From NCBI GenBank assembly GCA_024279945.1, contig JAJRRA010000040.1, positions 1 through 43,633 on the forward strand: a stretch of 43,633 nucleotides of DNA, written 5' to 3'. A program made the position numbers and the translations under genes. Origin of the DNA: Gammaproteobacteria bacterium (lineage in GTDB: Bacteria; Pseudomonadota; Gammaproteobacteria; Xanthomonadales; SZUA-36). Positions 1 to 3,991 of the stretch are shown here, one piece after another; the stretch's first letter is position 1; each line of letters begins with the position of its first letter. The notes beneath the pieces are model-generated. The model was not told where the DNA came from and did no database searches. It saw only the letters and a list, made by a program, of their open reading frames with translations.

Positions 1-141
1 GATGTCTTTACCAGTACCAGCTCCGGCGATGTCTTTACCAGTACCAGCTCCGGCGATGTCTTTACCAGTACCAGCTCCGGCGATGTCTTTACCAGTACCA
101 GCTCCGGCGATGTCTTTACCAGTACCAGCTCCGGCGATGTC
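1..141 (-). repeat. 27-bp perfect tandem repeat (coding)
   Basis: Five complete, identical 27-bp units occupy 1-135, and the start of a sixth follows before the sequence diverges at about 142. The array continues past the left edge. Read on the minus strand each unit encodes the nonapeptide IAGAGTGKD (cyclically permuted), so the array is part of the coding sequence of the gene at 1-498. Perfect identity at every third position points to recent expansion or gene conversion, unlike the older 21-bp repeat in the same gene. Confidence 0.95.
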
Positions 142-498
142 CGGCGTCAGGGCAATTTCGGTCAGCAACATATTTGCATAGGTTCCATCCAGCGAAGATA
201 TCCCCGTAAATATGCTATCCCCAATTATCCATGAAACAGCTACATTGTTATTCTGAACGGCTATCTGTAATGAACCCTCTGGATCAATATTTCCAGCGTG
301 TAGGGTGCCCGCAAAGGTAAGAGCTGCCACTGAACAAGCCAGGAGCCCTCTACGAATACCAGTACCAGATTTTTCAATACCAGTACCAGATTTCTCGATC
401 CCTGTACCCGATTTTTCTATCCCTGTGCCGGACTTTTCAATACCTGTGCCCGATTTTTCGATCCCTGTACCATCTTTTTCTATCATCCAACGAGACAT
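1..498 (-). CDS. Exported protein with GTGIEKS and AGAGTGKDI repeats (partial, C-terminus outside window)
   Basis: The reading frame is open from an ATG at 498-496 to the left edge (166 codons seen). The start has an AGGAG Shine-Dalgarno sequence about 8 bases upstream. Residues 6-47 are six heptads of the form IEK(S/D)GTG. Residues 49-68 (RRGLLACSVAALTFAGTLHA) look like the n- and h-regions of a Sec signal peptide with likely cleavage after LHA. Residues 70-120 form a short unique segment, and then nonapeptide AGAGTGKDI repeats run to the edge. The signal peptide therefore carries a repetitive hydrophilic N-terminal extension of nearly 50 residues. It lies 117 bp downstream of a DUF6502-type gene on the same strand. 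From memory, DUF6502 genes are often next to DUF5666 genes whose products contain GTGI-type motifs, so this could be a divergent relative; no such domain is visible here. Function unknown. Confidence 0.8.
   Translation of the reverse strand, partial: MSRWMIEKDGTGIEKSGTGIEKSGTGIEKSGTGIEKSGTGIEKSGTGIRRGLLACSVAALTFAGTLHAGNIDPEGSLQIAVQNNNVAVSWIIGDSIFTGISSLDGTYANMLLTEIALTPDIAGAGTGKDIAGAGTGKDIAGAGTGKDIAGAGTGKDIAGAGTGKDI
358..483 (-). repeat. 21-bp degenerate coding repeat (GTGIEKS heptads)
   Basis: Six 21-bp units encode IEK(S/D)GTG heptads at residues 6-47 of the minus-strand gene. Units differ mostly at synonymous third positions (for example ATT/ATC/ATA for Ile and GGC/GGT for Gly) while the peptide is kept. 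That pattern implies selection on the protein repeat rather than on the DNA. Confidence 0.9.
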
Positions 499-615: not shown

Positions 616-1476
616 TTACTCTACCTCCTCTTCTTCAGGTTCATGGTCTCCCCACTGGTACCATCCGATACCTACAGTGAGTTGACCGGGTTGCTGTGTC
701 GGTTCCTCGAATTCCTCGAGTAACGACTCCCCTTCTTTAATTTGTTTTTCTAACAGTTGTCTTGCTCTTTGACGAAATTCGCTGTAGTTACTTTGATCTA
801 GGCGGTATGTCCAACGGCCTTGTTGAGGAACTCGTTTTTCTGGTTCCGTATTAATATTGTGAATAACGGTGCTGAGAATTCTAGATGCTTCTAGGAAGGC
901 GATATCCGTTAGATTTGCAATATCACCCGAAATGGGCGAATAAAACAGCGAAAGCATTTCCACCCTATTAATATTTCCAGAGATTACCCTTACATTCCCT
1001 GAAGCAATCAATTTATCCAAAACTGTTTTGACGGTAATATTGCGGCCAATTGACCTCAACACTAATCCATGAAAAGTTTTGCCCCGGCCTTCAATTGGTA
1101 ATAGAGCTGGTTTCTGCGAGCTGGGGTCTTGAAAAAAGGGATCCTTTAACCATGTATCCAGAAGGGTTGCTTCTGGAATCATTTTTTGTGGTTCAATATC
1201 AAGGCTAAAATCACTCTTGATTATGTGGGAAACCACTCTTGTATCCAAGCCGGATACGAGGGCCAGAGCACTTTTTGTTGGATTGGTGCCATCTCTTAGC
1301 AGTTTCTTTTGCGCTTCCTCTACATAGACTGACCTCAACATCTCAACTACAGCTGGGAATGAAATTGTGCCGATTATAAGGCGAACTATCCTGCGCAAAA
1401 TTAAAGGCAGAACTTTGGCTATTGCTCTTGCTTCTTCGGGAAGCGTAAATTTATCTTGCATAGCAACGCTCGGCAT
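616..1476 (-). CDS. DUF6502-family protein
   Basis: The 286-residue protein starts at the ATG at 1476, preceded by CAGGAGACTGGAAA, a good ribosome binding site; a longer frame up to 1584 lacks one. An N-terminal helical segment (LILRRIVRLIIGTISFPAVVEML) is followed by a helix-turn-helix-like stretch with TKSALALVSGLDTRVVSHI, the arrangement I recall for DUF6502 (a 'SR..vlTG..R.dV' type motif). The central part is mixed alpha/beta and the C-terminus is acidic (EEEEVE). The helix-turn-helix-like part suggests a DNA-binding or regulatory role, but the family has no established function. It precedes the GTG-repeat exported protein and may be cotranscribed with it. Confidence 0.7.
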   Translation of the reverse strand: MPSVAMQDKFTLPEEARAIAKVLPLILRRIVRLIIGTISFPAVVEMLRSVYVEEAQKKLLRDGTNPTKSALALVSGLDTRVVSHIIKSDFSLDIEPQKMIPEATLLDTWLKDPFFQDPSSQKPALLPIEGRGKTFHGLVLRSIGRNITVKTVLDKLIASGNVRVISGNINRVEMLSLFYSPISGDIANLTDIAFLEASRILSTVIHNINTEPEKRVPQQGRWTYRLDQSNYSEFRQRARQLLEKQIKEGESLLEEFEEPTQQPGQLTVGIGWYQWGDHEPEEEEVE

Positions 1477-2248
1477 TTTCCAGTCTCCTGAAAATCCCCT
1501 TCCGTAGTCAATTGAAGTCCGTCTCATGAAAATCTGTCCAGGCCCTTGGACAGACAGTTGGGCACAGTCGCCGCAGTATATCAAAATGATAGCCTAATTA
1601 TCAACCACTTGCCATGTTTTATTAAGTATTTACTCATAGTAACGTTCATGCGAGAAAATACTACATTTATCTGCAAGCGAAACAGCCGGTTTCGAAGAGT
1701 GGCGATCATGACCCCTTTCGTCACCGGCTGCAGAGCTATCAGTATTGACCTCTGACTCGCTATGAACATCCTTGTTCTGTAAGCGGAGATTACATTCCAC
1801 TGTTTTCATCCTTGCTTAACCCAGCCCCCAAATCTCCCCAGGTTTGGGTATTTTCCACCTTAATTTCAGAGACGTCCCTGTCTCTACAGCCATCCATGGC
1901 CTTGAAATCTATGCCAGATTATTTTCCTGGCGGGATTCCGGTGAACCTGTATTCATCAGAATCAAAATGCATTGGGCAGTCCAACAATCCAGTTGGTGTT
2001 CTATAGCCAAATACTTTCTTCAGCGCCTATTCCAGTGCCTGATCTTTCAACCAGACTTCTAATATCATCGAAATCCGATTCAATGACAGAAGCCATACTG
2101 GTGTGTTCGCCGGGTTGCGGATCATCCATTGACCGCATTGAGGCTACTTTCAGGCTATGAAGTGTGTATTGCATTCGACTAAAGTAACAAAAATAGCCTT
2201 GCTTGTCTATAGCCATATATGTATTTAGACAATTATGCATTTAGACAC
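1477..2248. other. Intergenic region, no convincing gene
   Basis: About 770 bp separate the DUF6502 start from the promoter at 2249. Short ORFs on both strands lack good ribosome binding sites or recognisable products. One minus-strand stretch (2001-2138) ends in a peptide with SGTGIGAEE. Just past it, in a shifted frame ending at 1919, a second peptide (FGYRTPTGLLDCPMHF) also looks protein-like. This could be a decayed small gene. TATAGCCA occurs at 2209-2216 and again inside the palindrome at 2256-2275. Confidence 0.5.
2001..2138 (-). CDS. Possible small ORF or remnant with an SGTGI motif
   Basis: A 45-residue minus-strand frame from an ATG at 2138 ends with DIRSLVERSGTGIGAEES then a stop. 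It repeats the SGTGI motif of the exported protein at 1-498 and lies upstream of the same gene pair on the same strand. The ribosome binding site is weak (GAAAG). The next protein-like stretch (stop at 1919) is in another frame, so this may be the start of a frameshifted paralogue. It could also be chance. Confidence 0.25.
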   Translation of the reverse strand: MRSMDDPQPGEHTSMASVIESDFDDIRSLVERSGTGIGAEESIWL

Positions 2249-2277
2249 TTGCGTCTATAGCCAAAAGTGGCTATAAT
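2249..2277 (+). promoter_or_regulatory. Sigma70 promoter of the candidate small RNA
   Basis: TTGCGT at 2249-2254 and a perfect TATAAT at 2272-2277 are separated by exactly 17 bp. The expected start of transcription is about 2284, right at the first base-paired stem of the RNA candidate. Confidence 0.75.
2256..2275. promoter_or_regulatory. Palindromic operator candidate overlapping the promoter
   Basis: TATAGCCA (2256-2263), a 4-base spacer AAAG, and TGGCTATA (2268-2275) form a perfect 8+8 inverted repeat covering most of the -35/-10 spacer and part of the -10 element. A third TATAGCCA half lies upstream at 2209-2216. A repressor bound here would block RNA polymerase. The cognate protein is unknown. 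Confidence 0.5.
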
Positions 2278-2283
2278 GCAATT

Positions 2284-2425
2284 CACAAGGTCGGAAAAGG
2301 CACGGATAGCCCGCTCCAAAGTAGAAGGAACTACGTTGCCTTGTGAGGCATGGATGCACTTTGCGGGTGGCGAGACGTCCGCATAAAGGCCAGGGATAAC
2401 ACGGATGATGTTCCTGGCCTTTTTT
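2284..2425 (+). ncRNA. Candidate CsrA/RsmA-sequestering small RNA (CsrB/RsmZ-like)
   Basis: About 142 nt lie between a consensus promoter and an intrinsic terminator and contain no reading frame with a ribosome binding site. TCACAAGG (2283-2290) pairs perfectly with CCTTGTGA (2339-2346), enclosing two hairpins. GGA triplets sit in hairpin loops: GGC-ACGGATA-GCC (2299-2311), GTAG-AAGGAA-CTAC (2321-2334), GCA-TGGA-TGC (2348-2357) and AACA-CGGATGA-TGTT (2398-2412, inside the terminator). A fifth GGA lies at 2293-2295. Loop-presented (A)NGGA(N) motifs in a short terminated RNA are the hallmark of CsrB, RsmY and RsmZ, which titrate the translational regulator CsrA/RsmA. I do not recognise the primary sequence, and no GacA box (TGTAAG-type) is evident upstream. 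Another structured sRNA class remains possible. Confidence 0.55.
2385..2425 (+). terminator. Intrinsic terminator
   Basis: GGCCAGG (2388-2394) pairs with CCTGGCC (2413-2419), followed by six T residues at 2420-2425. On the minus strand the same hairpin is followed only by TTTAT, so it serves the plus-strand RNA best but may also stop asnS transcripts. Confidence 0.85.
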
Positions 2426-2479: not shown

Positions 2480-3880
2480 TCAGAAATCAGCCCTACCTGG
2501 TACGCGTGGGTAGGGAATAACGTCACGAATATTGGCCATCCCGGTGATATAGCTGACCAGACGTTCAAACCCCAGCCCAAAACCGGCATGTGGCACCGTG
2601 CCATATTTTCTCAGTTCCAGGTACCATTTGTAGCTTTCTTTATCGAGGTCGAGTTCGTCCATTCGTCTTTCCAGCACATCAAGCCTTTCTTCCCGCTGCG
2701 CACCGCCAATGATCTCTCCGATGCCGGGTGCCAGTACATCCAGCGCTGCGACCGTTCTTTCGTCATCGCTCAGGCGCATGTAAAAGGCCTTGATCTCGGT
2801 CGGATAATTCATCACGACTACCGGTGCATTGAAGTGTTGCTCCGTCAGGTATCTCTCGTGTTCCGTTTGCAGGTCGAGTCCCCATTCCGCAGGGTATTTG
2901 AATTTCTGGCTGGCGTTCTTCAATATTTCTATCGCTTCTTCATAGTCAAGGCGAATGAACGGTGCCTCGCTGAATTTTCTCAGCCTGTTAATGGCTTCCG
3001 GTTCAATCCGCTGCTCAAAAAATGCCATATCGTCAGGGCATTCTTCCAGGACGGCGGCAAAGATGTACTTGAGGAATGCCTCGGCCAAATCCGCCAGGTC
3101 GTCGAGGTCCGCGAAAGCTATCTCCGGTTCAACCATCCAGAATTCTGCCAGGTGACGTGAGGTGTTGGAGTTTTCTGCTCGAAACGTCGGACCGAAGGTA
3201 TAAACATTGCTCATTGACAGGCAATAACCTTCTACATTGAGTTGCCCCGACACCGTGAGGAATGTTTCTCGAGCAAAAAAGTCCTGGCTGAAATCAATCT
3301 TGCCGGCGTTATCGAGTGGTAGGTTACTCAAATCCAGCGTACTGACCCGGAACATGTCACCGGCGCCCTCGGCATCCGAAGCGGTGATGATGGGAGTATT
3401 GATCCAGAAATATCCCCGTTCATGAAAAAAGCGGTGAATGGCCTGCGCTGCCACGTGCCTTACCCGCGTTACAGCGCTGAATGTGTTGGTGCGGGGTCTG
3501 AGGTGAGCCACTTCGCGGAGAAACTCAAAAGAATGCCGCTTGGGCTGGATAGGGTAGGTGTCCGGATCCTCAACCCAGCCTACTACGTTTACTTCAGATG
3601 CCTGAATTTCGTACTGCTGCCCTCTGCCGGCAGATTCAACCAGTGTTCCTGCACACTCGACGGCGCAGCCGGCGGTTAATTTTTGTACTTCACTGCTATA
3701 GTTATGGAGTTCCGCAGGGGCCACGACCTGAATTGCATCAAAACTTGATCCGTCGTGCACATTGATAAAGGAGAAACCGGCTTTGGAATCCCTGCGTGTG
3801 CGTACCCATCCTCTGACCGTGACTTGTGTGCCGATGCCCATTTCGCCGGATAGTGCCTTTTTAATTCTGATGAATGACAT
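2480..3880 (-). CDS. asnS: Asparagine-tRNA ligase
   Basis: Cytoplasmic class IIb aminoacyl-tRNA synthetase that charges tRNA-Asn. The 466-residue product from the ATG at 3880 has the same length as E. coli AsnS and begins [10 protein letters not shown]; the frame extends further upstream, but that part has no homology to the family. An N-terminal OB-fold anticodon-binding domain ([17 protein letters not shown], residues ~18-35) is followed by the catalytic core with motif 2 ([18 protein letters not shown], ~205-222) and motif 3 ([15 protein letters not shown], ~435-450). It is divergent from the iscA-type gene, with 111 bp between the starts. Complete and unremarkable. Confidence 0.97.
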
Positions 3881-3991
3881 GATTCTATAGTTGATCTTTG
3901 TTCGGGAAACCCCAAATAGTAATGCACCTTCCCCGGCACGGACACCCCTGTCGTTGGAATAATGGCTCAAAGTTTCAAAAACAGGCTGATT

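Follow-up and report, generated by a model that had tools for sequence, protein, structure and literature searches.

The window analyzed here, the whole 43,633-nucleotide stretch of gammaproteobacterial DNA, carries at positions 2284–2425 a conserved structured RNA, confirmed by comparison across related genomes. Its best reading, at a probability of roughly 0.85, is that of a putative stand-alone CsrA-sequestering RNA gene specific to its lineage. We infer the CsrA-sponge class from the conservation of GGA motifs in hairpin loops, from the conservation of pairing and from the presence of csrA; the RNA is most likely a CsrA sponge in its mode of action and a new family by descent, and is best read as acting by analogy with CsrB, RsmY, and RsmZ, with no detectable homology to any of them. 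In the proposed mechanism, the RNA would be transcribed from its own promoter, display four GGA hairpins (up to six in relatives) and bind CsrA through them; binding would titrate CsrA, relieving CsrA-repressed mRNAs whenever the RNA is made, and its output would be set by whichever protein binds a 16-bp repeat array at the promoter. The features of the region are the following.

619..1476, minus strand: DUF6502 gene, running divergently to the RNA and encoding a putative regulator that would act at the array (frame open to 1584; PF20112, 65.6 bits)
2001..2174, minus strand: small divergent frame of 57 codons between the array and the DUF6502 gene (compared by eye)
2194..2273, no strand assigned: operator array of five head-to-tail 16-bp units starting at 2194, 2210, 2226, 2242, and 2258 (TAGMCA-N4-TGKCTA or half of it)
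2249..2277, plus strand: promoter, with -35 TTGCGT at 2249–2254, a spacer of 17, and -10 TATAAT at 2272–2277; presumptive start near 2284
2284..2425, plus strand: small RNA of about 142 nt, proposed to sequester CsrA (match to covariance model R1 at 2281–2426, 141.4 bits; supported by fold and covariation)
2283..2346, plus strand: closed domain, with a stem of 2283–2290 and 2339–2346 around the first two GGA hairpins
2299..2311, plus strand: GGA hairpin 1, GGC-ACGGAUA-GCC (GGA in 19/20 copies; all three pairs change on both sides somewhere)
2321..2334, plus strand: GGA hairpin 2, GUAG-AAGGAA-CUAC (GGA in 18/20; two-sided change in 3/4 pairs)
2348..2357, plus strand: GGA hairpin 3, GCAUGGAUGC (GGA in 19/20)
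2363..2382, plus strand: invariant hairpin without GGA, GCGGGTGGCGAGACGTCCGC (GCGGGTGGCGA in 20/20 copies)
2385..2425, plus strand: intrinsic terminator hairpin with GGA in its loop, then six T (GGA in 20/20; 4/7 pairs change on both sides)
2480..3970, minus strand: asnS, convergent neighbor (convergent downstream of the RNA in 17/20 genomes within the flank examined)

Signals, fold, and the invariant hairpin

Sequence comparison of the 20 copies counted here, which come from blastn and model searches, reveals a promoter and an intrinsic terminator conserved at all 20 loci. TTGYGY is present at every locus and is followed at an equal distance by TATAAT, TATACT, or TATAGT, with TAAACT seen only in L039. 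A preliminary description of this DNA had spoken of a consensus promoter; its coordinates, -10 element and spacing stand, but the label is too strong for a -35 element that shares three of six bases with TTGACA. The terminator that it had placed here, ending in a run of six T (2420–2425 in the window), is indeed found, and its hairpin and T-rich run recur in 20/20 copies, though a C interrupts the run in L031 and L039. A simple scan, requiring at least 4/6 matches in the -35 element and a terminator loop of 3–8, reported neither this promoter nor this terminator. The claim that the segment holds no reading frame is likewise borne out, since no frame is conserved: over the 20 copies, the spacing between the first GGA and the invariant hairpin falls into all three classes modulo 3, and ATG/GTG/TTG frames that end within the RNA are 0–38 codons at their longest.

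The minimum-energy fold, computed over 2284–2425, reaches -53.1 kcal/mol (z -3.56), a value equaled by 1 of 200 shuffles; the outermost U-A pair of the closing stem is visible in another fold. In the minimum-energy fold, the closing stem forms and GGA lies in or beside the loops of the hairpins at 2299–2311, 2321–2334, and 2348–2357 and of the terminator hairpin. The window copy presents four GGA motifs in hairpin loops against a shuffle mean of 0.46, and none of 200 shuffles reaches four. Over the 20 copies the mean is 4.3, against 0.67 in dinucleotide shuffles, and in 19 of them the count is matched by at most 4/200 shuffles. The exception is L039 (genome G011), which keeps two of the four GGA sites, has a single hairpin-loop GGA (equaled by 77/200 shuffles) and lacks the closing stem; the remaining GGA absences fall at hairpin 2 of L027 and L035. 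ANGGA pentamers number 3–7 per copy, and the closed domain holds a third GGA hairpin in 11 copies and a fourth in four of these (L032, L034, L036, and L038).

Pairing is conserved together with these loops. In an alignment of the 20 copies that was fitted to the structure of the model, which favors a covariation result, two-sided change affects 15 of 27 pairs, compared with a shuffled mean of 6.0, and is carried by 49 cells, compared with 12.5 in shuffles; none of 500 shuffles reaches either value. Slid versions yield at most seven pairs with two-sided change, and 97.2% of cells pair. The four loop GGA motifs of the preliminary description are kept in 19, 18, 19, and 20 of 20 copies, on stems that co-vary. 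The closing stem that it had drawn forms in 19/20 single-sequence folds, all but that of L039, but RNAalifold, a check that the description had itself proposed, does not show it in the consensus of alignment A1, where the region is out of register.

The most conserved element of the RNA is a hairpin that carries no GGA. In this hairpin, GCGGGTGGCGASAC..CCGC, five of the seven modeled pairs never vary and each of the remaining two is lost in a single copy, and the contrast between a near-invariant stem and co-varying GGA hairpins suggests recognition by sequence. The element is unexplained by sequestration and counts against a pure sponge, because a pure sponge has no need of such a hairpin. 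It is also what favors the principal alternative, in which the RNA is a base-pairing small RNA with this hairpin (GCGGGUGGCGASAC..CCGC) as its working part, the GGA hairpins being structural or secondary, or else a dual-function RNA. Such an RNA would nevertheless leave unexplained both the retention of GGA in the loops of otherwise changing stems and the presence of extra GGA hairpins, and we consider it improbable. Less probable still is a cis element, either the terminator region of asnS or the leader of a neighboring gene, with no separate RNA: asnS converges on the RNA at 34–972 bp in 16 of the 17 genomes where it is seen, making a bidirectional terminator possible, but promoter and array are conserved together with the RNA, the RNA lies on the strand opposite to asnS and DUF6502, and it is kept where asnS is 3 kb off (G010) or outside the flank examined (G049, G011, and G003).

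Distribution and relation to known CsrA-binding RNAs

A blastn search with a 211-base query located the segment in 15 of 41 genomes (the window's own and relatives), all 15 from the window's family. The covariance model R1, built from 15 sequences that include the window copy and were cut out using a core pattern matched by all blastn loci, identifies a single copy in each of 20 family genomes out of 39, and in 18 of the 22 of good quality (completeness of 90% or more, contamination of 5% or less). Applied under stricter filters to 299 genomes of the order, R1 gave a single weak match among the 260 that lie outside the family's 39. The good-quality family genomes without the RNA are G008 and G023 (genus g7), G015, and G017. 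Because the closest DUF6502 match in G015 (62% identity) starts at base 3 of its contig, the RNA may lie beyond the edge there.

A search of contigs with the invariant-core pattern returned 18 stretches, 17 of which hold the RNA by the model (L048 is cut at its end); the core is present by construction in the loci named here, which were found with that pattern. The 17 RNA-bearing stretches, all metagenome-assembled, are labeled as Xanthomonadales/Lysobacterales (10), Gammaproteobacteria (5), and Oceanospirillales (2). Since the contigs were placed in one family, we infer that the carriers form an uncultured family of the Xanthomonadales. Two stretches were discarded as chance matches: L057 (Beijerinckiaceae), the one of the 18 without the RNA and confined to the 20-base core, and L126, a viral contig in which only the 20-base core matches and lies, by eye, inside an apparent coding frame. 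L040, from a different family of the order (G144; 24.1 bits, E 5.8e-4), was set aside as a separate element and is not counted as a member. It comprises a GGA-rich conserved segment at about 1501–1653 on the minus strand, apparently behind a coding frame, which occurs in 6/6 genomes of the G144 genus (L118–L123) and gives no Rfam match; segments of this type are a candidate second CsrA-binding RNA.

The presumed ligand is encoded in nearly all carriers: csrA was detected in 31 of the family's 39 genomes, and among the 20 that bear the RNA only G013 (90% complete) gives no match, so that 19 have it. Genome G000 holds one csrA, above both NCBIfam cut-offs and adjoining, by eye, an alaS-like frame, and its product aligns to solved CsrA chains over 59 residues. 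Two of the properties that mark the functional class are found here, namely several conserved ANGGA/GGA motifs in hairpin loops (with the exception of L039) and a CsrA encoded in the same genome; a stand-alone transcript is predicted from the promoter and terminator kept at all 20 loci. In genus g7, csrA is present in two of four genomes (G023 and G008) and the RNA in none, so it is dispensable there. These genomes, together with L039, the GGA-free character of the most conserved hairpin, and the lack of a GacA box (see below), weigh against the sponge reading.

At gathering score, Rfam gives no matches in the window and none but a tRNA in seven loci, six of them RNA-bearing. Four sub-threshold matches occur in the window, among which RsmZ alone fits in both strand and type of RNA; at 12.4 bits (RF00166, E 1) against a cut-off of 44, homology to RsmZ was rejected. 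RF00166 exceeds its cut-off in none of the 39 family genomes. Eight of its weak genome-wide matches (best 29.4 bits, L095) appeared on reading by eye to be coding sequence or plain terminators, and some of the weak matches are the present RNA itself (G005, G014, G044, G020, G006, G003, G009, G007, G019, and G045). The present RNA resembles RsmZ/PrrB in being a putatively stand-alone RNA of similar length with several GGA hairpin loops and an intrinsic terminator, but it differs in scoring below the RF00166 cut-off, in its neighbors and in having no GacA box. It likewise shares its architecture and presumed mode of action with CsrB, CsrC, RsmX, and RsmY, as these are described in excerpts of PMC7286519, and yet none of their models matches at gathering threshold in the window or in the six RNA-bearing loci.

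Within the same order, excerpts of PMC7694677 describe RsmU of Xanthomonas, an RsmA/CsrA-binding RNA with four GGA motifs that is also absent from Rfam. According to those excerpts, RsmU arises by processing of the comEA mRNA, out of its 3' UTR, and is reported in Xanthomonas only, whereas the present RNA has its own promoter and resides beside asnS and DUF6502; the two are hence set apart by description and locus. A survey of open-licence PMC papers on CsrA sponges in the Xanthomonadales and on HetR outside the cyanobacteria found no description of the present RNA.

The preliminary description had proposed an architecture of the CsrB/RsmY/RsmZ type in a sequence that it did not recognize and that might represent a new family. 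Two of the outcomes that it had named as refuting do not occur: related genomes keep both the loop GGA motifs and the pairing, and no other Rfam family matches. The Rfam comparison that it had suggested yields no CsrB, CsrC, RsmX, RsmY, or RsmZ match at threshold in the window or the loci. Its CsrA-sponge reading is upheld as to GGA loops, pairing and the presence of csrA, and the class itself is a probable assignment. It had overlooked the extra GGA hairpins of relatives, the invariant hairpin at 2363–2382 and the 16-bp operator array at 2194–2273.

The 16-bp array and the input to the RNA

TAGNC recurs at an exact 16-base spacing at 20/20 RNA loci, with 4–7 units each; the last unit abuts the -10 element and the neighboring unit contains the -35 element. 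The 20 RNA-bearing genomes contain 24 instances of the full palindrome TAGMCA-N4-TGKCTA, every one of them at the RNA promoter; a backward-read control pattern occurs at 11 places. One site apiece is present in five of the 19 genomes that lack the RNA. An array beside DUF6502, without the RNA by the model, is seen in G008, G023, and G054 of genus g7, and single palindrome sites lie elsewhere in G051 and G021. In g7, asnS accompanies the array and DUF6502 in G023 and G054, and is not within the flank examined of G008. The g7 loci L086, L087, and L088 show an array of 4–7 units without the RNA, between a good promoter-like TTGACA..TATATT and a small frame, and the g7 array may act on this small frame alone.

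Two proteins can be put forward as the source of input, both tentatively. One is GacA, which drives such RNAs in Pseudomonas and E. coli and might do so here through a binding site that has diverged. Of the 39 family genomes, 31 encode a GacA/UvrY-like regulator, and so do 19 of the 20 carriers of the RNA; the G000 copy scores 237 bits to NF007018, below the cut-off of 280. The best fits to the GacA/UvrY box, TGTAAG-N6-CTTACA according to excerpts of PMC4682653, nonetheless leave 3–5 mismatches within 300 bp upstream of each of the 20 RNAs, much as in base shuffles (means 4.05–4.54). Furthermore, the array covers the -10 and -35 elements, while the UvrY inverted repeat sits far upstream at csrB and csrC in the same excerpts. 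The odds that we would give GacA, clearly below even, apply equally to the second protein, the divergent DUF6502, which would bind the 16-bp units and control both the RNA and its own gene.

The case for DUF6502 rests on position and predicted fold. The gene is divergent upstream of the RNA in 19/20 genomes, at 560–958 bp in 18 and also in G044, the contig ending in G024, and genus g7 retains the pair of array and DUF6502 while lacking the RNA. Of the structural models of DUF6502, the first, of low confidence, has a pLDDT of 58.6 and the better one 75.3, with a pTM of 0.37; residues 37–87 and 99–180 match TetR-like and MarR-like helix-turn-helix stretches. The best PDB matches for both models are HetR structures, mostly with DNA (Foldseek: E 6.3e-5, TM 0.40), and VIA-align also places HetR at top ranks, with Z 8.0–8.8 and rmsd 6.5–7.8. 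The predicted fold is accordingly nearest to HetR, but the match is weak and suggestive only, since Z values of 7–8 are common in that comparison and the global superposition is poor. A sequence profile of DUF6502 finds no match in the PDB, Pfam returns nothing beyond DUF6502 on the protein, and no paper on DUF6502 was found in the open-licence PMC literature. The adjacency, moreover, may be coincidence, and DUF6502 paralogues exist elsewhere in these genomes. Binding of the array by DUF6502 is thus a possibility that we hold at less than even odds.

The surroundings of DUF6502 hold further frames. In L003, L004, L005, L006, L014, and L086–L088, the interval from the array to DUF6502 contains small divergent frames that resemble one another (MLYVLHHSKG.., MYWVIHYLNG..), and the 57-codon frame of the window is possibly a shortened relative of a frame of 82–107 aa in other genomes; one [DE][KR]xGTGI motif occurs in the small frames of the window, L041, L042, and L051. 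Downstream of DUF6502 and on the same strand, a frame at 1–498 (minus strand) that runs off the window combines N-terminal (EKSGTGI)n repeats, a signal-peptide-like stretch and (AGAGTGKDI)n repeats. The DNA behind these peptide repeats forms tandem arrays at 355–480 (six copies of 21 bp) and 1–141 (5.2 copies of 27 bp). In relatives, the repeat gene carries (VAGGGTG)n-like repeats. A repeat gene lies beside DUF6502 in 11 of 16 loci scanned (the window and ten named loci) and a variant in L055, DUF6502 reaching the locus edge in the remaining four. Of four repeat proteins, three have no Pfam domain and the other gives a sub-threshold match to CsoS2_M.

By analogy with HetR, which PatS-type peptides tune, a new circuit can be envisaged in which a HetR-like DUF6502 would bind the 16-bp array, set the CsrA sponge and its own operon and be tuned by the adjacent (EKSGTGI)n repeats; we regard this combination as unlikely.

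Implications for CsrA control in the order

Xanthomonas genomes have no CsrB or CsrC according to excerpts of PMC7286519, and no CsrB, CsrC, or RsmV/W/X/Y/Z homologues according to excerpts of PMC7694677, so that RsmU is the answer at hand to how CsrA is released in the order. A stand-alone, lineage-wide sponge with an operator array would be a second, unrelated answer to CsrA release, in a sister family. Such a sponge would offer an input to CsrA that can be tested and that differs from the GacA box, and its invariant hairpin, free of GGA, would add a functional element not described before. Were the peptide-tuned circuit true, CsrA control in these bacteria would hang on a peptide-responsive switch and not on GacA.
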